This document shows, one piece after another, positions 1 to 48,900 of a DNA stretch of 64,000 nt. The DNA is taken from contig CM068587.1 in assembly GCA_035048485.1 (NCBI GenBank), forward strand, positions 54,820,501 through 54,884,500, read 5' to 3'. How positions within the stretch are numbered: position 1 is the stretch's first letter; every line of letters begins with the position of its first letter. The position numbers were made by a program, and so were the translations under genes. The stretch comes from Pteria penguin. Its lineage: Eukaryota; Mollusca; Bivalvia; Pterioida; Pteriidae. The notes beneath the pieces were generated by a model. The model saw only the letters and a program-made list of their open reading frames with translations, was not told the origin of the DNA and did no database searches.

Positions 1-1076
1 ATACGAGATCACCGTAAAAATAAGGATGGGAAATTCCATTGGATACATACTGTTGAAAAGAAATATTTCCAAATTTAGATAGAAGTTCTGAATAAGATTT
101 GAAGAATTTGCCGAATGTTTTTCTTAACTTGTGATATCTGTAACCCTGAGTAAAAAGTTTAGTAGTAATTAGTAAATTTCGTTTATGAAAGTCCAAAACA
201 TCGGTGCAGCCTCTGACAAATCGAACTAATTGAGATATATAGATACCATATGATGGGAGTCGAGGAACATCGCCATCCAAGTAAGGGAAATTTACAATAG
301 GAAATCCAAAATCCTCACGTTTATCATAAATATTAGTATATATTAGGTGGTTGATAATTTTGATGTTTAAATCTAAGAAAGGTGTAGATTTATCTCAAGT
401 ATTAGCTTTATTCAATGTGAGCTCTGGTGGATAAATTTCTGATATAAATTGTTCGAATTCAGGGTTGTCGATAACCAAAATATCATCCAGGTATCTACAA
501 GTATTATTGAATTTGTCAATGAGGTCAAAACGTTTTGATTTTTGAAGAGAAACCATAAAATACCTCTCATAACAATAAAGAAATAAATCTGCTATCAGAG
601 GCGCGCAGTTAGTACCCATAGAAATCCCTACTATTTGTTGATATATCTTGCCATCAAATTGCACAAAAATATTATTCATGAGATAATCTAGTGCTTTACA
701 TAATTCCTTGCAAGTCCAGTATTTATATGAAGTATATTGTTTGTTGGAAAAGAATCCGGAGTTATTGGAAGTACATATGTACGTTTTAGATTCTCTGTGA
801 AAACACCATTGTATAAGAAACAGCAACTTGCTTTTAATCAAATCATGAGGCAAAAATGTATAAAGTGTAGAAAAATCAAATGTAGAAATTTGAGTCGCTT
901 TGAAAATTAGCGAAAGAAGTTTGTCTATAACTTCATGAGAATTTTTAATCGACCAAAAGTAATTGATGTTACTATTATGAAATGCGACATCACAATATTT
1001 GATAATATGATCTTTTATAGCAGTTAGAGCAGACGTAATATGCTTCGATAGTACCGTAGTAGAGCAGTGGCTAGAA
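1..1076 (-). mobile_element. Naiad-type Penelope-like element, copy A (reverse transcriptase part)
   Basis: The minus strand encodes the reverse transcriptase of a Penelope-like retroelement. Visible motifs are FDFSTLYT (motif A), GISMGTNCAPL (motif B; P of the usual GIPMGT changed to S) and YLDDIL (catalytic Asp pair at 482-487). Its protein is nearly identical by eye to copy C at 46265-47353. The frame is open over the whole stretch except for one TGA at 395-397, and copy C has a TGA at the same codon. The 5' end is truncated at about 1076, where homology to copy C stops, and the 3' end runs off the window. Family knowledge: Penelope-like RTs are related to telomerase RT. It is a truncated copy that cannot encode the endonuclease. 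Confidence 0.88.
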
Positions 1077-1447
1077 TGTAAAAAATAACTTTTATAATTT
1101 GCAACAAACATTATATTACTGAGATGCATGTTGCACGAAATAACCTTTATCTGTGATCTGCAAGCCTAACAAAGTGTTGTTGTTTTATATAGTTTAAACC
1201 AGAATTAAAAATTCATGCGACATCACAATATTTGATAATATGATCTTTTATAGCAGTTAGAGCAGACGTAATATGCTTCGATAGTACCGTAGTAGAGCAG
1301 TGGCTAGAATGTAAAAAATAACTTTTATAATTTGCAACAAACATTATATTACTGAGATGCATGTTGCACGAAATAACCTTTATCTGTGATCTGCAAGCCT
1401 AACAAAGTGTTGTTGTTTTATATAGTTTAAACCAGAATTAAAAATTC
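982..1447. repeat. Perfect tandem duplication, 233 bp x 2
   Basis: Bases 982-1214 recur directly as 1215-1447 with no difference that I can see. The unit covers the truncated 5' end of copy A plus about 135 bp of flanking sequence, so the duplication happened after that element landed. Perfect identity suggests a recent event. Confidence 0.9.
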
Positions 1448-3849: not shown

Positions 3850-6800
3850 GTAAGTTACATTTCTTTTGTATCTGTGCTTGATTTATTATCACTTTCTGCT
3901 GCTTTGAAATTGATACTCGGGTGTTATTTCACTAAACTTACATTTACACACACAGTCCAATTAATGGTCCTTGTCAAAGATAAATTACTAATTATCATTG
4001 AAAATGTAAAGATTAAATGATAGAAAACACTATTTTCTTAGATTATTCATCATGTCTTATTATGTGCATTGACTGACAAATATCACCAATGATGTTTAGA
4101 AATATTTTTTCACACAAAAGGTAACAGACATTATATGTGTACAACTGAATTATTACGAGGAAAAAGCACATATAAATGTAAGTGGAGATTGACATGCATT
4201 GTTAATGCTATGCTTGTCGTGAGTGAGAGAGTCAGAGAACAATTCACTACACCAATTCAGTGCTGATAGTCACTTCAGTTGACAACCCAACATCAGTGAC
4301 GTACTGCATTGTATTCGGATATGCACTGGGTTTTTTTTTTTTCTTATGCTTTTGGCCAGCATGTCCATGACAAGACTTCTGTCATGAACCCGAGTAAAGT
4401 GGGTTTGTTTTCTTTATCTTTTCTTTTCTTTTTTTTTCCACGTCAAACTATTCAAATGATGTTCAGGAACTCTTATTTTTCTTTTAAAGCTACAATGGGT
4501 CATTATAAATAATAATTCTGAAATAACCATGTTTTTATTACATTAAAGTGAAAATCAACATAGCAAAGGGCAAGAATGCATCACAATCGTCTACATGGTA
4601 CGGTATGCTTACTGCCGATGGCGCTGTTGATGGCAAGATACGTGATTATCCAGGACATTGTATTGAACCATATGCTCATACTGATCACTATGACGGTACC
4701 CCATGGTGGTATGTTGACCTTGGAAGGACCTTTAATATAGTCCAAATAATGCTATATGGAAGACAAGGTAATTGATGAAATATATTGTCTTTTATTGACA
4801 ATGTGACTTTTATACAATATGATATTGAGATCATCACAAAGACTATAGGTCTTGTATTTGGCCCCTCTACAGCCTTATGCAGACTTTTACTTGAACGTTG
4901 CACGCTGACTAACAGGGCGGTGGGGACTGTATGACGGGCCTTGTCCAAACCTCTTTCAGAGGAGACATGGTCCTGAACCTCGTCCCCTCTGACTGTTAGT
5001 CGGGACTCCTACAGATCTAGGATCTCAACTTGCTTTCAGACTGGCAGAGCACGCTTTATCATGTTGATGTCGCATATATTTTTATACCATTATGTGTTTT
5101 ACAATACCTTTGTTTATATTTTTATGACCTCTCAATATGCGATACCTGTTGACCCTTGTTCTTTACATGGAGGATTATTTATAAATTTTTAAATGTACGT
5201 CCTTTGATTGTTCTGCTGTTACGGTGTGTGGGAAGGTGGGCACGTAAACCGGTTAACCACACCATTTGTTTGGCTTTTGTCAAATTAAATGACCGTCCTA
5301 AGTCGGTATCGTAATTGCACTACAATCAAATATTTTTGTAATATGTTATATGTTCTAGTATATTATTTATATTCATGTATTGTATAGCTTTATGGTGACT
5401 TCTGCCACATAACTGAGCCAGTAACTCCTCTTTTTTCTTCCTTGAAAATAAGCACTTGAAAAAAAAAACCTTCAAGTTTAGTTTCTCCCCAGTTTTGATT
5501 CTATTCACCTGCTAAATAAAGACTGTCTTCAATATTTTCCTCACAGAAAATAAACTTTATGTACCATAGTAGATTATTGCAAATGCGTAATATTATAATT
5601 TGTGATGTGACAATTCATGATATTTCTGAGGTTGCATTACTGTAATATTTTAAGAAAATTACTTCATCGTTCATTTCTTTTATCCTATCTACCATAGGGC
5701 ACTATTTTATTTTAATTAACCGTCATACATCTAGACGTCGATATGTCAAATTATCAAAAGAAATTTCTTATAGCCTATTGTACACGAATTCTTCTGATTG
5801 GTATGTCATGCCAACATAGGGTTGAATCGTACGTCCGAGTGCTAGGTTTATGTTCTTTCATAATTACAACTGTTTTGGTATTGCTGGTAGCGTATTATTT
5901 TTCCATGGGGATTCACTAACCAAGTTTTAGGCTAAAGTACTGACACAAAATATATGCGTCAAACGTTTCTGATATATTTCTAATTTTTACAGAGAAGTTC
6001 TTCCCATTTGAAAAGTTCTGCTCTCTTGTAAGCTCATAAATATTTGGACTTTCCTGTGCGTTGACTGCGGTAATTTTTAAGATTTCCGTTCTCAGACTTT
6101 TATCACCTCAGATTATGTATGTTACTTCTTCACTCTTTTTCACAAAGTTGTTTTGTGTTATTTTTAATCCGATATTCAAAAAGTCTTTTTACATGATATA
6201 CCAGGTTTGCCTTAGACATCAGGAATCATCACAAAACTTTTAACATAAATATAGCCTTTGATCAAATAACCTTCCTGACAACGAGTTTGATTATACAATG
6301 TAATGTTTTCAAAACTTTAACGAGGAAATTTACAACTATGATTATGAAATTTAAAAAAAAATTATATTTATTTATATATTTTTATGATTTCTCAACTTTG
6401 GATACTTGTTTTCCTTTTTTCTTTTTTTTTTTTTTTTTTTTTTTTTTTTATTTTGTTTTGTTTGTTTTTATGAGTTTTACTCAGGTTTTTGTTTTTGTTT
6501 TTTTTCTATATGGAGGATTATTTAAATGTGTGTCCTTTGATTGTACTGCATATGTCCTGAGTGAGAGGATGGGCCTGTAAACCGGTTAACCATATCAATA
6601 CATGAGTTTCCAGATACGGAACCGGACAGACTTTTTCGAATATTACGCGCTCCTCGTGTCAAAGGTGGGACATGTTTACATCCGTCTCTGTGTAGAGTCA
6701 ATAGCCCGCTAGGTTTAAACGCTGATGAATCAACAAATACATGAAGGATAATAATGTTCATATGTTGAAATAGATTTAATAAACAGAACTATTGGTTTCA

Positions 6801-11068: not shown

Positions 11069-11340
11069 TTTGATTGATTGATTATTGTTTTACGCCACGA
11101 TTATTTCACGTATATGGTGACTGCATCTGCCTGATGCATTGTATACACATTTAGACCTTTGCAATGGACCCACCCGAAGCAGTTAGGGATCTTCAACGTG
11201 CCACACCTACCGTGATACGGGAACTCGGATTTTACTGCCTCATCCGAAAGACCGAACACCGGTGTGCCCAGGGCAGGAGTCGAACCCGGGACCTCTCGGT
11301 CATGAGCCGAGCACCTTATCCACTAGACCACACCAGCTGT
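11069..11340 (-). mobile_element. tRNA-derived SINE with 12-bp target duplication
   Basis: Minus-strand SINE. The tRNA-like head at the right end carries A-box (TGGTCTAGTGG) and B-box (GGTTCGACTCC) promoter elements on the minus strand. The body is conserved and the 3' end is a 'caatcaatca'-type simple tail at 11069-11080. The perfect duplication agtggagtgggt flanks it at 11057-11068 and 11341-11352, proving retrotransposition. Confidence 0.93.
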
Positions 11341-12190: not shown

Positions 12191-31100
<18,910 letters not shown>

Positions 31101-36949: not shown

Positions 36950-39900
36950 GACGACGACATTGCATTTGAAACACACTGTGTCCTTCCTTCACCGATGTAT
37001 TTCTTCATACGAAGCTAAATAAGCCTGTTATTACTGTCTAATGGAAAACAATTACATTTTTAGCTGAAATACAGATCTATAGATCACTTGCTGTCAATTA
37101 ATGACTTTATATGGATTACCGTATCATATCTAACCAGAAAAAGCAACAATTCTAAAACGTGTCTAGATTACATATAGGATTATGACTTCGGTAGTCATAA
37201 ACACATCAAATCTTTTAACAAAGAAAAAAGAGGAGTTACTGGCTCAGTTATGTGGCAGAAGTCACCATGGAGCTATACAATACATGAATATAAATAATAT
37301 ACTAGAACATATAACACATTACAAAAAATTTGATTGTAGTGCAATTACGATACCGACTTAGGACGGTCATTTAATTTGACAAAAGCCAAACAAATGGTGT
37401 GGTTAACCGGTTTACGGGCCCACATTCCCACTCACCGTAACAGCAGAACAATCAAAGGACGTACATTTAAAAATCTATAAATAATCCTCCATGTAAAGAA
37501 CAAGGGTCAACAGGTATTGCATATTAAGAGGTCATAAAAATATAAACACGTAAGGTATTGTAAGAAAAAAGAGGACTTACTGGCTCAGTTATGTGGCAGA
37601 AGTCACCATGGAGCTATACAATAATAAAACACATAATGGTATAAAAATATATGCGACATCAACATGATAAACCGTGCTCTGCCAGTCTGAAAGCCAGCTA
37701 AGACCTAGATCTGTAGGAGTCCCGACTAACAGTCAGAGGAGACGAGGTTCAGGACCATGTCTCCTCTGAAAGAGGTTTGGACAAGGCCCGTCATATAGTC
37801 CCCACCGCCCTGTTAGTCAGCGTGCAACGTTCCAGTAAAAGTCTGCATAAGGCTGTTGAGGGGCCAAATACAAGACCTATAGTCTTTTTTATTATCTCAA
37901 TATCATATTGTCTATATATGTTTTCAATATCACAAACCCTGCTTGGATTAGTAGCAATATTCCATCATCGTGCGCCTTTGGCGCATTCATATCTCAATTA
38001 AATCGTTATGCCAAAATTGCAATGATTCTGTTCAGGGAGGGAATGACTTTCAGATAAATTGCTAAGCGAATGATATGTAAAAGGTAAATTTACATTGTCA
38101 TTGAGGGATTTCTGTGTTCGATATTAAGGTTTTATCATAAAATATGATATTTTGTTATCCACAGTTTTCAATTATCTTTTGAAATAACCACTTTAAACAC
38201 CGAATTGTAAACAACTGACCGACTGAATAGTTTCTACAGAAAGACATTTTATTTATACAGTACCTCAATATTTCTCTGTTTTAGATAACGTCGGCACGTA
38301 GACGATACCTCAATCTTCCTCTTTCTCAGGTAGCGTCGGCAGGTAAACAATAACTCAGTCTTCCTCTAATTCAAGTACGGTCTGTAATTAGACGGTAAAT
38401 CAATCCTCCTCTGTCTCGGGCAGCGTCCGCCCGTAGACGATACCTCAATCTTCATCTGTCTCAGCTAACGTCGGCAAGTAGACGATACCTCAGTCTTCCT
38501 CTGTCTCAGGTAACGTCGCCATGTAGATGATACCTCAATATTCCTCTGTCTCGGGTTATGTTGCCACAGTCCTCCTTTCTCTCAAGCAACATCGGCACAT
38601 AGACGATACATCAATCTTTCTCTGTTTCATGTAACATCGGCACGTAGACGATACCTCATTCCTCCTCTGTCTCAAGTAACGTCGGCACGTAGACAATACC
38701 TCAGTTTTCCTCTGTCTCAGATGTCTACATGCCGCCAATAACTCATGGTTTCCTATGTCTCAGGTAGCATCGACATGTAGACGATACCTCAATCTTCCTC
38801 TGTGTGAGGTAATGTCGGCATGTACACGTTACCTCAATCCTCCTCTGTCTCAGGTGACGTCGGCACATAGACGATACCTCATTCTTGCTCTGTCTTAGGT
38901 AAATTCGGCACGTAGACGATACTTCTGTCTTTCTTTGTCTCAGATATTGTCTACATGCTGCCGATACCTCAATTTTCCTTTGTCTCAGGTAAAGTCGGCA
39001 CGTAGACGATACCTCATTCTTCCTCTGTTACAGGTATGTTGCCGCGTAGAGGAAACCTCATTATTCCTCTGTCTCAGGTAACGTTGGCATATACACGATA
39101 CCACAATTTCCCATTGTCTCAGGTAATGTTGCCAAGTAGACGATTTTCACTCTTCCTCTGTCTGAAGTAACGTCGGCACGTTAATGATACCTCCATCTCC
39201 TTCTGTCTAAGATAGTGTCGGCACTTAGACGATACTTCAATCTTCCTCTGTATCAGATAAAGTCGGTACGTAAACAAGACCTTAATTTTCAAGTCATTGA
39301 AATTTCCAGCGGATGTCCTCAACGATTAAGTTTATATAAGTATAGATTGCACATCATAAGTAGTAAATATTATTTTTTATTTCCTATGAAATCTTGTATT
39401 GACTTATTTAAAACAATCATAAATAATAACGAACTTGATGTTTTACCTTAACCATAGCTGTTCATTGTTAGATACGTACTCGGGTAACTAGATAATTGCA
39501 CTGCGTCGATATGTTGATCAAAATATGAGATTAGGCGTCAATGGGCATGGCTTCATATAATGAATAAAAAGGATAATTTCCTACAACTGTATTAGAGGTA
39601 GGAAATTTGTCCATGCCAATGGATCAATTTAACGTAAATATGGTAGTCTATAAAAAGTACATGTCACAGAGTGTTACTGGAATCATCAGTTTTATTGAAA
39701 ACATGGAGCACAATATATTTAATCTTTTCAAACAGCTCTGTAATATTCCGACTTCTTGTGTTACATTCTGATGTTTTTTGTTTATTTTATTTATTTATTT
39801 TAGTTTTCTTTTGCAGCAGAAAGAATAGACAGCACTCAGGATATGTTCACCAGAAAGCTCAACTTCTTACTATCATTCGACGCTTCAGTCATTCTGTCCA

Positions 39901-42900
39901 GGGATAAAGTAGATGGCTTAGATTCATGTCTGATGACATGCTACAAGTGGAACACTTGTCTGTCTCTTCAATATTCTAATGAACATTGTGTCACCTACAT
40001 AAGGTTTCTGAGTTCATTTGATCAAGATGTCAACATTGTGGATGGAATGTACTACGAAAAGAAAAGTTAGTTATGTTTCGTTTGTCTTTATGTGTTGAAT
40101 TATGAAAAAGTAAATGCATTGAAAATAATCAGTTAACATTTACGGGTCCTCTTTCCCACTTACCACAAAAGCAGCAGTAGAATCAAAATTACATATTTAA
40201 AGCTATAGACATATTCAAACACAGGTGAAAAACTGAATTCTCTCTGCAAGTTGTTATCTTCCTTAATTCAAGGTAGAGAAAAAAACATAAAAATTTTCTC
40301 CAGAAAGATTAGCCATCTTAGGTGACATTTGGACCTCTTGTTCAGTTACGTGGAAGGAGATAACCAGCTTGTCAATTGAAAATTTTGATCAATAAATAAA
40401 TTATTCAATTCAATTAAATATAACAAATAGCACAATAAATTCATTACAATGTTTCCCTGTTAACAACGATGTGAATTTATTAAAAACGGACATATATATT
40501 ATTCTTGAAACATAACACATTTTACAATAAGTATTCTTCACAAGCACTGTATTTCAAAACCTGAAATCTTTACAAATTAAAATTGCTTCCACTTTGTGTC
40601 TTTACACGAAAACCGTTTACCGGAACAACATTTCAATTTATGAGATAATTAATCTGGTGGAAATGTGTTCCACAGATTGTTGCCATTCCTACAGGTACAA
40701 AATGCGTACTACTTCTGACCGACATTTTTTATACTTATACGAAGCAGAATTCAAAGTTTCTGCTTTCCGTAGGGAATAAGCTAGTAGCATATCGTATCGT
40801 TTCTGTGGTCGATATAGGGATCTAGTACAATTTCAGATTCCTCTTTCAAGAATGTTAACCGATATTTTGGGACCTGATCATAGAAACTAACCATCTTAAC
40901 TTTTTGACTATGTAAAGATGATGGATAAATCCAAACCACAAATCCAAAAATCATGAAACCATAGGACATACAAAATCAGTGAAAATGAAAAACAAATGGA
41001 AAATAACAAAATATGTCTACTTGAAGAGCATATGTGAACCCCTGTGATGGAGTGAGATCAGGTGCCCGGGGAGAGTGAGCATCTCCTGCTTGCTAGCAAC
41101 ACCCGTCACATATACCCCGTAGAATGTGTCAAATCGTGTGAATTCCATATGTATCTATATATGGAGAAGTCGAAGTAGGTAACCTTCTAGTATAGAAGGT
41201 GTCAAATCTGTGTAAAGTGATCGGAATCGGTCTCAGTCCAGAATATCATTTAAAAGTCTGGATAACGAGATATCATATGGAGTAATAAGAGTCTCGTAAC
41301 GACCGTAGAACTTCCTCAGTGACGATGCTAGTCTAGCACATATATAACCCTGGTTGAGCAGCTTAACTGAAAGTCGCCTAGCCCTCAGAACAAAGTCATT
41401 GTAATTTGAACATGCTCTGGAATAACGTATTAACTGAGATATGAATACGCCGTATGCGGGCGATGATGGAATGTTGCTACTTATGAAAGGAAAGTTTGTG
41501 ATAGCGAAATTGAAATCGTCACGTTTGTCATAGAGTGAGGTGTTCAATTGACCATTAATGTCGAAAGACAACATAATATCTAAATACGAAGTAGAATTAC
41601 TAGTTTCTGTGGTTTCTTTGACCTCCAGTTCACTTGGATAGATGATGCTAAGGTAATCCGCGAATGAAGGATTATTAATTGAAAGCAAGTCATCTATATA
41701 TCTGTAAGTAAAATTGAAGCCAAGAGTCAATTGTTTTTTTCCTTGCGAAAGCAAAGACTGAATGAACTCAGCTTCGTATGAATAAAGGAATATGTCAGCC
41801 AGAAGCGGAGCACAGTTAGTGCCCATTGGAATGCCGACAATTTGTTGAAAAACCTTACCTCCAAACACCACAAAAATGTTATCGATAAGAAAGTTCAACA
41901 TCTGAATGACAGCTGTTTCAGTGTATTTATTTTTGGAATCAGAATTTTCCCTAACAAAGTAAGTTTTATCGTGGCCTATTACTATATATTTGAATTTGCG
42001 GCTTCCGTTTTTACTAGTAAATGCATTTTGAATAATTTCCGCTAATCTGTCTTTTAATTTCTGATGAGGGATCGTTGTGTACAGAGTCGAAAAGTCAAAA
42101 GACTTGATGGAGTGAATTTTAGTAAAACTTTTTGATTTTAGATGTTCTAACAACTCTTTTGAATTTTTAAGGATCCACATTTGATTAATTCCACTTCTGG
42201 AATATACTGTTTCGCAATATCTATGAAGGCCAGATTTAATTTCTGATAATATTTTTGTGAGTAGCATCGATACAGATTTTGTGGAACACTTCGAAGAACC
42301 AGCGATAAAGCGTTGTTTGTACGGAGTTTTGTGCATTTTTGGAATACAGTACAAATATGGAAGTTCTAAATTCAATTTATTTGAGTCAATACCAAACGTA
42401 TTGAGGACAGATTTATGATTCTCGAGTACTTCCGAAACCGAAAAGTTCGTGAGAGTATAAGTAGGATTTCCTGGAGCTGAATTTAATCCTAATTCTTTCA
42501 CTAGGCTGTCAAAGTAATATTTCTTACAAGTAAATGTATAATTATTAGATGCTTTATCTGCTGGTGTAATGATATAATGTTCTTGGAGGAAGGTAAGTTC
42601 TCTGACAACATCAGGATCTTTAAAAATAGATTCGAATCTGGTGTTTACAGAACCTTGTAATTTTTTAATTTTTGATCTCAGCAGTGCTGCAATAGATTTT
42701 ATCCATTCCGAAAGAGTGTCGACTTGTACTTCCTCTCTTTTTGCCCATCGTGTGGCATATTCCTCGCAGCAGTTCATAATATTCTCAAAATTTTGGCTCC
42801 ATGTGAATGATCTGGGTTCTCTGTATTTTGGACCTTTAAGTAAAAGTTCTCTTAATTTAGTGTTTTTAACTATATCGAGATCACCAGTAATGACATGGCC

Positions 42901-45900
42901 ACAAGGAGAATATACGAAATTAGATGAGGAACATGCACACGGTTGAGAATGGCATGCAGAGTTGCTAAGATCAAGACACTGTAGAAACGTTTGTAATTAT
43001 AAATTTTGGATGCAACTGATGGCGTGTAGCTATAGGAAATACATGGAGGATCTTTGTTTTTGAAATATGGAGATATTTTCTCTAAAACAGACTTATGATT
43101 TAAAATTTGGCCGAAATTTAAATAATCAATGCCTTTATTTGCAAATTTAATTTTGATGAAAGGGCGATTAGATTTTTCCAAAGAAATATCGGACTTGACG
43201 GGACGAAAAAGTCTAGCGGTCGATATGTCCATAATAATGCCATCTAGTCTATACTCTGCAGAGCTTATATCAGTAAATATACGGTGTCTGGACGATACGT
43301 ACAACTCGTGTAATTTTCTGAGTGAAAGAGAATAAAGTTTTGTACGAATGTGATGAAGGCCCAAAGGTTTATTTATAAATGGCAAAAGGGCATCAAAGGA
43401 AATATTATGTATTTCAGGTTTGTTGTATTTGCGTGTACCATGACTTCGATGCCTCCTCTGGCTTTTGTTGAATAAACCGAGTACGTTAACTGATTGACAC
43501 GCAGGACTAGTGAGATTACCAATACTACTAATATTGTCATTGCATCCATAGGGCGAAGCAGTGCCGAGACGTCTTATCCAGTATTCTTCTCTTTCAATAT
43601 CGTTATAACCGATTTCCCTTTTTTGACTAGCAACACACCTTCCTCTCCCGCATATGGCGTCTTCATATCACAACTTATACACTATGCCATAGCATGTTAT
43701 AAGTATGAACATTTCGTTCCAGGAGCGAGCCTTTTTGCCACGAAACTACTCTCATAAGGACATATTAGGGAACGTTTGTAATTGTCATTGAGGTAGTTCT
43801 ATGGTCGATATAGGCACTCGGTGGTATTTGAGATCCCCCTTTCAAGAATGTTAACTGACATGTTCGAATCAGCCCAATAACCATTTTGAACTTGTTTAGT
43901 GGCGGATTTAGAGGGGGATGCCCCGTCCCTTTTTTTTTTTTTTTTCGCCACATGCATGAGTAAAACTTCAAATTTGGCACCATATATGGCTGAGTATTTC
44001 GGCTAATACTTGACTTTTACATATCCCCACTTTTTCGTAAATCCTTGATCCGCCAATGTTTTGACTATACGTAATTTGCCATTATATGTATACATACAGA
44101 CAACTCTCACATAGATGTACAACACTGGAATTTCAGTTCAACAGCATTTCATATCGTGAATGGAATGATTTGATTTAGTGTCCTTGTCTCTTACGTATGC
44201 CCATGTGTATATCTGTTTACTTACTGAACTTGAAAAGTTGTTGCAGGACTTTTGCTACGGGTATTGCATGCAAGCAGGGGACGCTTACTCGTTTCGGGCA
44301 CCCTATCTCACTTCAATTTAATTCGCATGACAGATGACGATATTGTCCTTTTATTCCATGGACTTCGAGATATGGTAAACCCTTCGGTACTTCTCCCCCC
44401 CCCCTTTTTCATTAAAATGGCTTCAAATATAATAAAATTAAAATACAAATCTCATAAAGTTATAATCACACCACTTAGATTGCCCTCTGTGTCCACTCTT
44501 CATATACCTGGTATTTCTTGTAGAAAATTATTCGGCACCACTAAAGTTCATATTTCTCCACTTAAAAGTAGTTTCCCTATTAAACGTTCTATCTCATTTT
44601 CAAAAACATTCACACCTATAAATTCTTACAGAGCTGTCAATTCTATACGCAGAGGGTATTCTAAGATTAATAAGTGCAACGCAACTGCAAGTCCAATATT
44701 GAATCTTCGGTTAATGGAAATACATTTAACACCAAATTAGACAAAGACATAAATTGAAATACTGCCAATGTTATATATGTCATCACTTGAGAAGCTAGAG
44801 GATGTGGGGCTCAATATGTCGGGGAAACTTCTCAAACTTTGAAACAACGTTTTCGGAATCATTCCTATAAAATTCGTAATAATTCACGACGTAAATACCA
44901 GAATTTTCTTTATAACCACTTTAATGAATACCAACATAATATTAACAATGTGAAAATAACTCCAGTAGAAAATATCTCTAAATTACCAGGTGATACGAAA
45001 TCAGATGTTAAAAAACGACTTTTGGAAACCGAGCTCTACTGGATTAAACAACTACAAACCCCATATCCTCTCGGTCTCAACGACCAAATATATCGACAAG
45101 GTAATATTTCTTCTCGTCAGAATAAGATCAATATTTTTACATTAAGACATAAAACTATTAGAAAACGTAGGTCACATGGTCGTCGCCGTAATCGTAACAT
45201 CAGAAAACGTAATCGTTTAAATTGGTCATTAAACGATCTTCTATTTATCGCAAAAAATAATGGCCGTCATGAACTTTTGCATGCACCATCCTCTATTCCG
45301 GTAAATAAATTGAAATCTATCCTTGACGAAGCTGATCTTCGAAGTTTACACAATTCTGATTGATATAAACTCAATTTGATTATTTTATTTTCATATAATA
45401 AACTCTTTCCTCGTATTCCGTCTCTTCCACCCAAGCAGCAATTTCTCAAAATTAGATTTATTAATAAAGGCTTCGATCTACTTAACATTTCTAATATTTT
45501 CCGTGATCATAGAGTCACATCTAAAATCCCCCAATATTTTGAGAATTTAGAACCTCCACTTATTTGTTACCAGTACAAAAAGCCTATAAGAAATCTTATT
45601 CTAAATTATAATAAAGTTACATCTAACCCTGATGTTTCAGACTCTATTCCTTCGTCGTGTTCTTGTGATAAATCTAAATATGTTTATAAACCGGCAGGTC
45701 ATGTTATTACTGGTGACCTAAACTGTATTTCGAACAAGAAATTGCGCACCCTTTTTGGAAAAGGACCTAAATATAGGTTACCGTCCAGGATAGATTTCAA
45801 TAAATGCCGTGACGTTATAGAAGATGCTTTAACTACATATTGTAAACGTTGGTGTAATAAAGAACAGGTAAAGGTTCATGCTCTTAATGATTGGAAATAC

Positions 45901-48900
45901 GAGATTTTAAAAATTGTTGATATCCGTATTAAGAACTTTACCGAAAATCCGCATTTATTTCAACAGCCTAATACATTGACGGCAAATTCTATTAAAAAGA
46001 AGATAGCCGACTTACATGCTAAATATGTCTTTGTTACTGCTGATAAAGCAGGTAATAACATAATAGTTGTTTGAAAACTATATTATATTGAAGTACTTAA
46101 AAACGAATTAAACTCCACTCATACATATGTTGAAAGCCCTACCTCAAAAGACAGCACCTTGCACGATCACCTCATGACCATGTCCGACTTCAAAATTAAA
46201 ACTGATAAATCTGATCTACCAACCATATATTGGCTCCCAAAACTACATAAAAGTCCATATAAATCACGTTTCATATCTAATTCTAGCCACTGCTCTACTA
46301 CGGTACTATCGAAGCATATTACGTCTGCTCTAACTGCTATAAAAGATCATATTATCAAATATTGTGATGTCGCATTTCATAATAGTAACATCAATTACTT
46401 TTGGTCGATTAAAAATTCTCATGAAGTTATAGACAAACTTCTTTCGCTAAATTTCAAAGCGACTCAAATTTCTACATTTGATTTTTCTACACTTTATACA
46501 TCTCTGCCTCATGATTTGATTAAAAGCAAGTTGCTGTCTCTTATACAATGGTGTTTTCACAGAGAATCTAAAACGTACATATGTACTTCCAATAACTCCG
46601 GATTCTTTTCCAACAAACAATATACTTCATATAAATACTGGACTTGCAAGCAATTATGTAAAGCACTAGATTATCTCATGAATAATATTTTTGTGCAATT
46701 TGATGGCAAGATATATCAACAAATAGTTGGGATTCCTATGGGTACTAACTGCGCGCCTCTGATAGCAGATTTATTTCTTTATTGTTATGAGAGGGATTTT
46801 ATGGTTTCTCTTCAATAATCAAAACGTTTTGACCTCATTAACAAATTCAATAATACTTGTAGATATCTGGATGATATTTTGGTTACCGACAACCCTGAAT
46901 TCGAACAATTTATATCAGAAATTTATCCACCAGAGCTCACATTGAATAAAGCTAATACTTGAGATAAATCTACACCTTTCTTAAATTTAAACATCAAAAT
47001 TATCAACCACCTAATATATACTAATATTTATGATAAACGTGAGGATTTTGGATTTCCTATTGTAAATTTCCCTTACTTGGATGGCGATGTTACTCGACTC
47101 CCATCATATAGTATCTATATATCTCAATTAGTTCGATTTGTCAGAGGCTGCACCGATGTTTTGGACTTTCATAAACGAAATTTACAAATTACTACTAAAC
47201 TTTTAACTCAGGGTTACAGATATCACAAGTTAAGAAAAACATTCGGCAAATTCTTCAGATCTTATTCAGAACTTCTATCTAAATTTGGAAATATTTCTTT
47301 TCAACAGTATGTATCCAATGGAATTTCCCATCCTTATTTTTACGGTGATCTCGTATATAAACTAAGGAAAGTAAAAGGCTCCGATAACGTTATTTTATCA
47401 TGTAATAAAATAATCAAACGTCTTATAAATAGACAATATGATATTGAGATCATCAAATAGACTATAGGTCTTGTATTTGGCCCCTCTACAGCCTTATGCA
47501 GACTTTTACTTGAACGTTGCACGCTGACTAACAGGGCGGTGGGGACTATATGACGGGCCTTGTCCAAACCTCTTTCAGAGGAGACATGGTCCTGAACCTC
47601 GTTCCCTCTGACTGTTAGTCGGGACTCCTACAGATCTAGGGTCGCTTTCAGACTGGCAGAGCACGCTTTATCATGTTGATGTCGCATATATTTTTATACC
47701 ATTATGTATTTTACAATACCTTACGTGTTTATATTTTTATGACCTCTCAATATGCGATACCTTTTGACCCTTGTTCTTTACATGGAGGATTATTTATAAA
47801 TTTTTAAATGTACGTCCTTTGATTGTTCTGCTGTTACGGTGAGTGGGAAGGTGGGCCCGTAAACCGGTTAACCACACCATTTGTTTGGCTTTTGTCAAAT
47901 TAAGTGACCGTCCTAAGTCGATATCGTAATTGCACTACAATCAAATATTTTTGTTATGTGATATATGTTCTAGTATATTATTTATATTCATGTATTGTAT
48001 AGCTCTATGGTGACTTCTGCCACATAACTGAGCCAGTAACTCCTCTTTTTTCTTTCTCAATTGTTTACTTACTTACTCCTCTCGGGCACCTTGTCTCACC
48101 TATATATTTTTCAGGGGTACGTGACAGTTCACTGTGGTTCATTGTTGTTAGTGTCACAGTCATGTGACAACAGTTACTTTCGAGTTTTACAAGTCATACT
48201 TAACATAAGGTATCAATACATTCTATTCATTCGCAAAATCAACAGACTTTATGAGCCTTTCCTTTATGGATTTTGTATGATATTGTCATTGAAGTGAAAA
48301 ACAACATAGCTAGGGGACAAAATGCATCCCAGTCATCTACTCATACTGGTGGTTGGACTGCTAGTTTTGCTGTTGATGGCAGAATACGTGATAACCAAGG
48401 GCATTGCTTGTCACCATACGCTCATACTGCGGGAATGGACCTTTCTCCGTGGTGGTATGTCGACTTAGGAAGGACATATGATGTAGAACAAGTAATAATA
48501 TTCGGTAGACAAGGTAAGGGATGAACTTCAATTCTATATTTCATTGAAGAAGATATTCTATTTCTTTTTCCGCATTGATTGATTATTGTATGACGTCACT
48601 CCACGCGTAATTGCACGAATATGGTGACGGCACCTGTCTGATTCACTGCATAGAAGGAGGGCTCTTTACGTCTCGCTTCTAACATAACATAGGACCTCAG
48701 TTTTTTGTGTTATTCGAAAAATAGGACACCGGTGTGCCTACGAAGGGAGTCCAACCCGTAATCTTGGGTCAGGAGCTGAATACCTCATTAACTGCACTAC
48801 ACCGGGGGTTTTTTTTATAATTGATCAAATATTTACAAACTAAGGAGTATAACTCTATTGTCTTGGAAGGACTTTGGCTTTGCCTTTAGGTCAATGTTTT

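Follow-up and report, generated by a model that had tools for sequence, protein, structure and literature searches.

Probable selenocysteine codons in a bivalve retroelement

The locus analyzed here raises the question of whether five in-frame TGA codons in a retroelement of the bivalve Pteria penguin are nonsense mutations or codons for selenocysteine (Sec). The element lies in a stretch of 64,000 nucleotides (positions 54,820,501 to 54,884,500, forward strand, of contig CM068587.1 in assembly GCA_035048485.1), hereafter the window. An earlier note on this DNA had proposed a selenoprotein encoded by a Naiad element. The comparisons of sequence described below support that proposal, and we put at roughly 0.9 the probability that the five UGA codons are decoded as Sec under the direction of a selenocysteine insertion sequence (SECIS), with translation ending at a further UGA inside the SECIS core.

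The frame at 44689-47460 was re-read in the sequence and contains, as claimed, TGA at 44755, 44788, 45361, 46072 and 46960, TAA at 46816 and TAG at 47458; the remaining five frames over the same stretch hold 44 to 123 stops apiece. Among single-base changes to a stop from the sense codons of this frame, about 23% are expected to give TGA, and the probability of at least five TGA among seven stops under this model is 0.008-0.011.

A Naiad-type Penelope-like retrotransposon present in many copies occupies the segment 44417-48040, here with slight damage. Naiads are Penelope-like elements with an N-terminal endonuclease (EN+), for which an insertion in the fingers domain and pseudo-LTRs (long terminal repeats) or a tandem arrangement are also characteristic. 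The family encodes a single protein of roughly 1,054 residues with an N-terminal GIY-YIG endonuclease, a CxC linker and a C-terminal telomerase-like reverse transcriptase (RT). Database relatives align along nearly the full length of the focal protein, and 36 of 53 aligned relatives carry the Pfam GIY-YIG domain; the focal sequence itself matched no Pfam family at E 0.01, GIY-YIG included. The CxC motif corresponds to Cys at residues 324 and 326, retained in 79/84 and 80/83 relatives, respectively. An AlphaFold2 model of the focal protein (pLDDT 87.4, pTM 0.69) found its best structural matches among telomerase RTs. Residues are numbered from codon 44689, which places the five TGA codons at 23, 34, 225, 462 and 758; counted from the family start codon, these are residues 123, 134, 325, 562 and 858. 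The features of the element, with copy counts from the alignment of 30 copies described below, are as follows.

44417-44688, plus strand: 5' portion of the open reading frame (ORF), beginning at the likely ATG and frame-shifted relative to the remainder in this copy
44689-47550, plus strand: main reading frame (GIY-YIG endonuclease, CxC linker, telomerase-like RT)
44755-44757, plus strand: UGA 1 (residue 23), endonuclease Cys position, predicted Sec; TGA in 29/30 copies
44788-44790, plus strand: UGA 2 (residue 34), endonuclease Cys position, predicted Sec; TGA in 30/30
45361-45363, plus strand: UGA 3 (residue 225), non-Cys site in Cys-type relatives, predicted Sec; TGA in 30/30
46072-46074, plus strand: UGA 4 (residue 462), conserved Cys near the RT start, predicted Sec; TGA in 30/30
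46816-46818, plus strand: TAA, lesion private to this copy (1/30)
46960-46962, plus strand: UGA 5 (residue 758), recent, RT site mostly Ser/Thr, predicted Sec; TGA in 30/30
47458-47460, plus strand: TAG, lesion private to this copy (1/30)
47542-47606, plus strand: SECIS element (RF00031, 32.9 bits)
47551-47553, plus strand: terminal UGA inside the SECIS AUGA (47550-47553); in-frame TGA in 30/30
47607-48040, plus strand: remaining 3' tail; similarity between copies drops at about 48030-48090

Fixed TGA codons and private stops in young copies

The genome (838 Mb in 49 contigs) was searched for further copies, and the best 40 of 3,900 candidates were scored, all of them 97-100% identical. Thirty copies, including the focal one, were cut out and aligned, 18 after being reverse-oriented. 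This alignment provided the codon count across genomic copies that the earlier note had suggested as a check, and TGA occupied the first of the five sites in 29 of the 30 copies and the other four in all 30 (149/150 cells). The other in-frame stops before 47551 numbered 16, each a singleton (10 TAA, 4 TAG and 2 TGA, including the TAA and TAG of the focal copy). Thus, fixed stops were TGA in 5/5 cases and private stops in 2/16 (Fisher p 0.001).

Ratios of non-synonymous to synonymous changes in six segments up to 47458 were 0.63, 1.62 (10 codons only), 0.53, 0.49, 0.39 and 0.58. Five of these values, including those for segments 3' of all five TGA codons, fall within 0.39-0.63, which indicates constraint on the frame between these codons. 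Additionally, two database relatives served as queries. With protein P0013, the best 73 of 10,694 candidates were scored, of which 64 had exactly four TGA, the number expected in the aligned part, and 49 had neither TAA nor TAG. With P0001, several TGA were found in every one of the 48 copies scored.

A SECIS element at the end of the frame

The predicted 3' tail, in which the earlier note had suggested looking for a SECIS, contains one at 47542-47606 (Rfam SECIS_1, RF00031; E 1.3e-4 in 701 bases), and so do the tails of other copies. The Rfam cut-off for this family, 35 bits, was exceeded by two further tails within the window (4923-4986 and 37739-37802) and, at the ORF 3' end, in 14/20 and 9/9 further copies, or 23 of 29 besides the focal one. 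Three of the six copies below the cut-off were run again, giving 34.7 bits for L009, 30.8 bits for L017 and the L007 result discussed below; the result for the other three (L019, L020 and L022) is that of the first run. The core letters AUGA, AAAC and UGA were intact in 30/30 copies. Across 14 SECIS sequences, 98% of the cells pair and one pair is changed on both sides. Copies L006, L009, L018, L022 and L028 have a second SECIS beyond the opposite end of the ORF, which suggests tandem tails or pseudo-LTRs.

The earlier note had taken the TAG at 47458 as the end of the frame. This was rejected because the TAG is private to the focal copy, and the frame continues past that position in four further tails of the window. 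An in-frame ATG is found 122 codons upstream of the first TGA in 18/30 copies, a part in which the focal copy is frame-shifted. At the other end, all 30 copies have an in-frame TGA at 47551, and no other common in-frame stop occurs between 46963 and that codon. This sixth in-frame UGA, codon 1055 from the family start, is the predicted terminator of the family and belongs to the AUGA core of the SECIS.

Proteins of a sister family, 67-73% identical, agree with this end point. Among the matches listed (120 of 4,792), P0158, P0159, P0160, P0161, P0166, P0193 and P0229 (clusters of 116, 477, 769, 499, 232, 1 and 1 sequences) terminate exactly at the matching residue 954, in a search whose length limits favour ORFs of about 160-516 residues. 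A tryptophan (W) occupies the codon matching 47551 in 13 of the 277 proteins collected. A stop in one group and W in the other at codon 955 points to TGA, if both groups belong to one family. The Cys-type proteins P0003, P0018 and P0036 extend to about the same place, and codon 955 is TGA in 20/24 of the older-copy alignments that reach it. A second in-frame TGA, at 47593-47595 on the 3' side of the SECIS core, is also present in 30/30 copies.

Cysteine homologues, controls and host machinery

The five sites were compared with 120 database relatives, counting at each site those aligned there. The prediction that the TGA codons at 44755 and 44788 fall on conserved endonuclease cysteines was confirmed, with Cys in 37/40 relatives at residue 23 and 40/41 at residue 34 (W in one relative at each). 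At residue 462, Cys was found in 90/113 and W in 18. As had been noted, 45361 (residue 225) has no Cys partner, the relatives having mostly Glu, Pro or Asp, and W in two; yet the TGA there is an old and conserved one. The remaining site, 46960 (residue 758), was rejected as a conserved Cys site, with Ser in 70, Thr in 24 and Cys in 5 of 116 relatives. A TGT facing this site, as the earlier note described for its copy D, was found in the divergent copy at 18612-19103, whereas the copy at 1-1077, which is 98% identical, has TGA.

P0013 has W at residues 23, 34, 225, 324 and 462. W was also found at residues 23 and 34 in P0133, and at residue 225 in P0001, P0013, P0121, P0133, P0143 and P0150. 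P0001 has W where the focal DNA has TGA within the SECIS, and on that ground W in these database proteins would represent TGA as translated by the source. P0001, P0002, P0013 and others seem to have been translated in this way, which can hide or reveal selenoproteins.

Other relatives appear truncated at the same codons. Three gene models of Pinctada imbricata (P0145, P0146 and P0147), 80-91% identical to P0013, stop exactly before residue 462, at the element's predicted Sec codon; P0148 and P0149, from the same species, stop earlier in the match. All five contain Naiad pieces fused to host domains and, given the three that end at that codon, are probably annotation artefacts. P0122-P0125 and P0128 begin immediately after residue 34 and finish immediately before residue 462, limits that would be expected if both residues were stops in the standard code. 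A scan of viral contigs found no relative, and a scan of genome contigs found one Cys-type locus, L001. This is an animal-type Naiad contig in a metagenome-assembled genome of Flavobacteriales (QIJL01000205.1), probably a contamination.

A control is provided by copy B, a Cys-type Naiad in the same window. The TGT that the earlier note had placed opposite 46072 was confirmed at 42526-42528 (residue 462), and the ORF of copy B ends in TGA. A search of 40300-41400 detected no SECIS beside it. Its family is also high-copy, with 84 copies scored at 98-100%, so that Sec-type and Cys-type Naiad families are both young in one genome. Internal stops were absent from 83 of the 84 copies, the other having one TAG, and internal TGA was absent from 84/84. 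L001, 30% identical to the focal element, has TGT, TGT, TGC and TGC at residues 23, 34, 324 and 462. The host genome contains two tRNA-Sec genes with anticodon TCA (77.8 and 77.3 bits).

Older copies and the history of the sites

A genome-wide SECIS scan gave 28,938 candidates, of which the best 150 were scored; 85 reached E 0.001, all above the cut-off, and 28 of these (ranks 1-25 and three lower) were opened with 3-4 kb of upstream sequence. The loci were chosen by SECIS score, so a good SECIS there is not independent evidence. Naiad sequence lay beside the SECIS in 12/12 loci in a first run and 25/28 in a second (26/28 in either; L045 was matched in the first run and lost in the second). 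In such genomes the element thus swamps SECIS scans.

The older copies are decayed, with 31 TAA, 28 TGA and 15 TAG within well-aligned stretches. Among them, a stop is shared by more than two copies only at residue 462, which is TGA in 7/7, and at residue 225, which is TGA in 4/4. Residue 324 is TGT in 4/4, and residue 758 is Ser in seven, Phe in one and TGA in one (n=9; L034, with a Pro codon in the first run, was removed by a local-identity filter). The TGA at residue 758 is thus a recent gain at a mostly Ser/Thr site. Altogether, these distributions suggest that Sec sites may have been gained stepwise, with 462 in all Sec-type families found, several of them also having 225 and some 324, while 758 is confined to the young focal family and one other copy.

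Weighing the alternatives

Several observations weigh against the selenoprotein reading. The focal SECIS, at 32.9 bits, is below the Rfam cut-off, copy L007 gave no SECIS match even at E 0.05, and covariation of the SECIS pairs does not exceed that of shuffles (84/500 reach the same). In relatives, residue 225 does not correspond to a Cys and residue 758 seldom does, while residues 23 and 34 are unreadable in the older copies of this genome. W in the database proteins could be TGG site by site. The last 30 codons have 14 non-synonymous variants and 1 synonymous, with no sign of protein constraint there. Finally, since the 30 copies are those that matched best, part of their agreement comes from their youth.

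Could the TGA codons simply be nonsense mutations in a decaying pseudogene? The focal copy does have real lesions, namely the TAA, the TAG and the 5' frame shift, but these are private to it, whereas the five TGA codons are common to 29-30 of 30 copies, and random decay was rejected as practically excluded on that account. A subtler possibility is a non-coding master element, copied in trans, whose five nonsense codons were fixed by descent only. Copies that are 97-100% alike would indeed share such codons, and fixation alone is no proof of function. However, TGA at 462 and 225 is also found in much older copies, W matching TGA occurs in families only 58-71% identical, the SECIS is at the right place, and the variant ratios given above point to constraint even 3' of all the TGA codons; we consider a dead master very improbable. 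Reassignment of UGA, for instance to Trp, or plain selenium-free readthrough would account for W at these sites in some database proteins. Against this, the sites align to Cys and not Trp, a SECIS and tRNA-Sec are present, and in this genome the Cys-type copy B has TGT at 462 and ends in TGA, while none of the 84 scored copies of its family has an internal TGA; reassignment to Trp was rejected, and this class of explanation is scarcely credible.

The decoding as Sec could also be right and the TGA at 47551 not be the terminator, either because it is recoded too, with translation ending later, or because no protein is made from the last 30 codons. The excess of non-synonymous variants in those codons and the further TGA at 47593 fit this, as does the fowlpox SECIS that functions inside a coding sequence (PMC8310308). 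On the other hand, the stretch 46963-47551 is free of any other common stop, seven sister-family ORFs among the matches listed end exactly at residue 954, and Cys-type proteins reach about the same place, which makes a different end unlikely. The outcomes that would have spoken against the proposal of the earlier note, namely TGY or unrelated codons at all five sites in the consensus, evenly scattered stops and a tail devoid of SECIS, were not observed, and the copy alignment and tail SECIS support the proposal that the family encodes multiple selenocysteines.

Proposed decoding and comparison with known systems

Under the selenocysteine reading, host machinery would insert Sec at the five UGA codons, directed by the SECIS at the 3' end of the mRNA. 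A UGA near a SECIS would be poorly recoded. The terminating UGA is itself part of the AUGA core, so a ribosome arriving there would have opened the very hairpin that recodes UGA, and the sixth UGA would be read as a stop. We lean towards an arrangement in which UGA serves five times as a Sec codon and once as a regular terminator, position alone separating the two meanings, with the stop codon and the SECIS locked together. Three of the sites replace a conserved Cys (two in the endonuclease, one at the RT start), and one might guess at a structural, redox or metal-binding role.

Naiads of clams and spiders, studied by Craig and others in 2021 (Mol Biol Evol), reportedly encode selenoproteins with several selenocysteines. 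The Pteria element shares with them the N-terminal GIY-YIG domain, the CxC linker, the C-terminal RT and several in-frame UGA codons. Cys-type Naiads such as copy B and L001 have the same domain order, with Cys at 462 (and at 23, 34 and 324 in L001), but differ in having no in-frame UGA at the Sec sites, and in copy B no SECIS was found alongside.

Among other selenoproteins, the fowlpox glutathione peroxidase 4 has a SECIS inside the coding sequence (PMC8310308); as in the Pteria element, the SECIS is not restricted to the 3' untranslated region (UTR), although there it lies within the reading frame and in the Pteria element its core includes the stop codon. Selenoprotein P likewise decodes several UGA codons as Sec in one mRNA but is an unrelated protein, encoded by a host gene whose 3' UTR contains two SECIS elements (PMC5133445).

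Among the titles and abstract openings listed from an open library, no description of a stop codon within a SECIS core was found, nor any of selenocysteine in retroelements. Multi-Sec Naiads have already been reported; the stop-in-SECIS arrangement may be new, and the 2021 study may describe it. A mobile element whose endonuclease and RT depend on host selenium would be unusual. With five Sec codons and many copies, such an element would be active in dependence on the supply of selenium. The stop codon that overlaps the SECIS would additionally offer a natural test of the distance from a SECIS at which UGA recoding ceases.

Other copies and features in the window

Five further pieces of Naiad sequence were located in the window.

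1-1096, minus strand: truncated second copy of the same family, 98% identical, with TGA at 395-397
4811-5442, plus strand: 3' tail of a further copy, with the SECIS at 4923-4986
18612-19103, minus strand: divergent copy, with TGT at the residue-758 site (18975-18977)
37220-37919, minus strand: 3' tail of a further copy, with the SECIS at 37739-37802
41233-43598, minus strand: copy B, Cys-type Naiad (control family), with TGT at the residue-462 site (42526-42528)

Two Rfam tRNA matches, at 16817-16889 (plus strand) and 11265-11337 (minus strand), are possibly tRNA-derived repeats.

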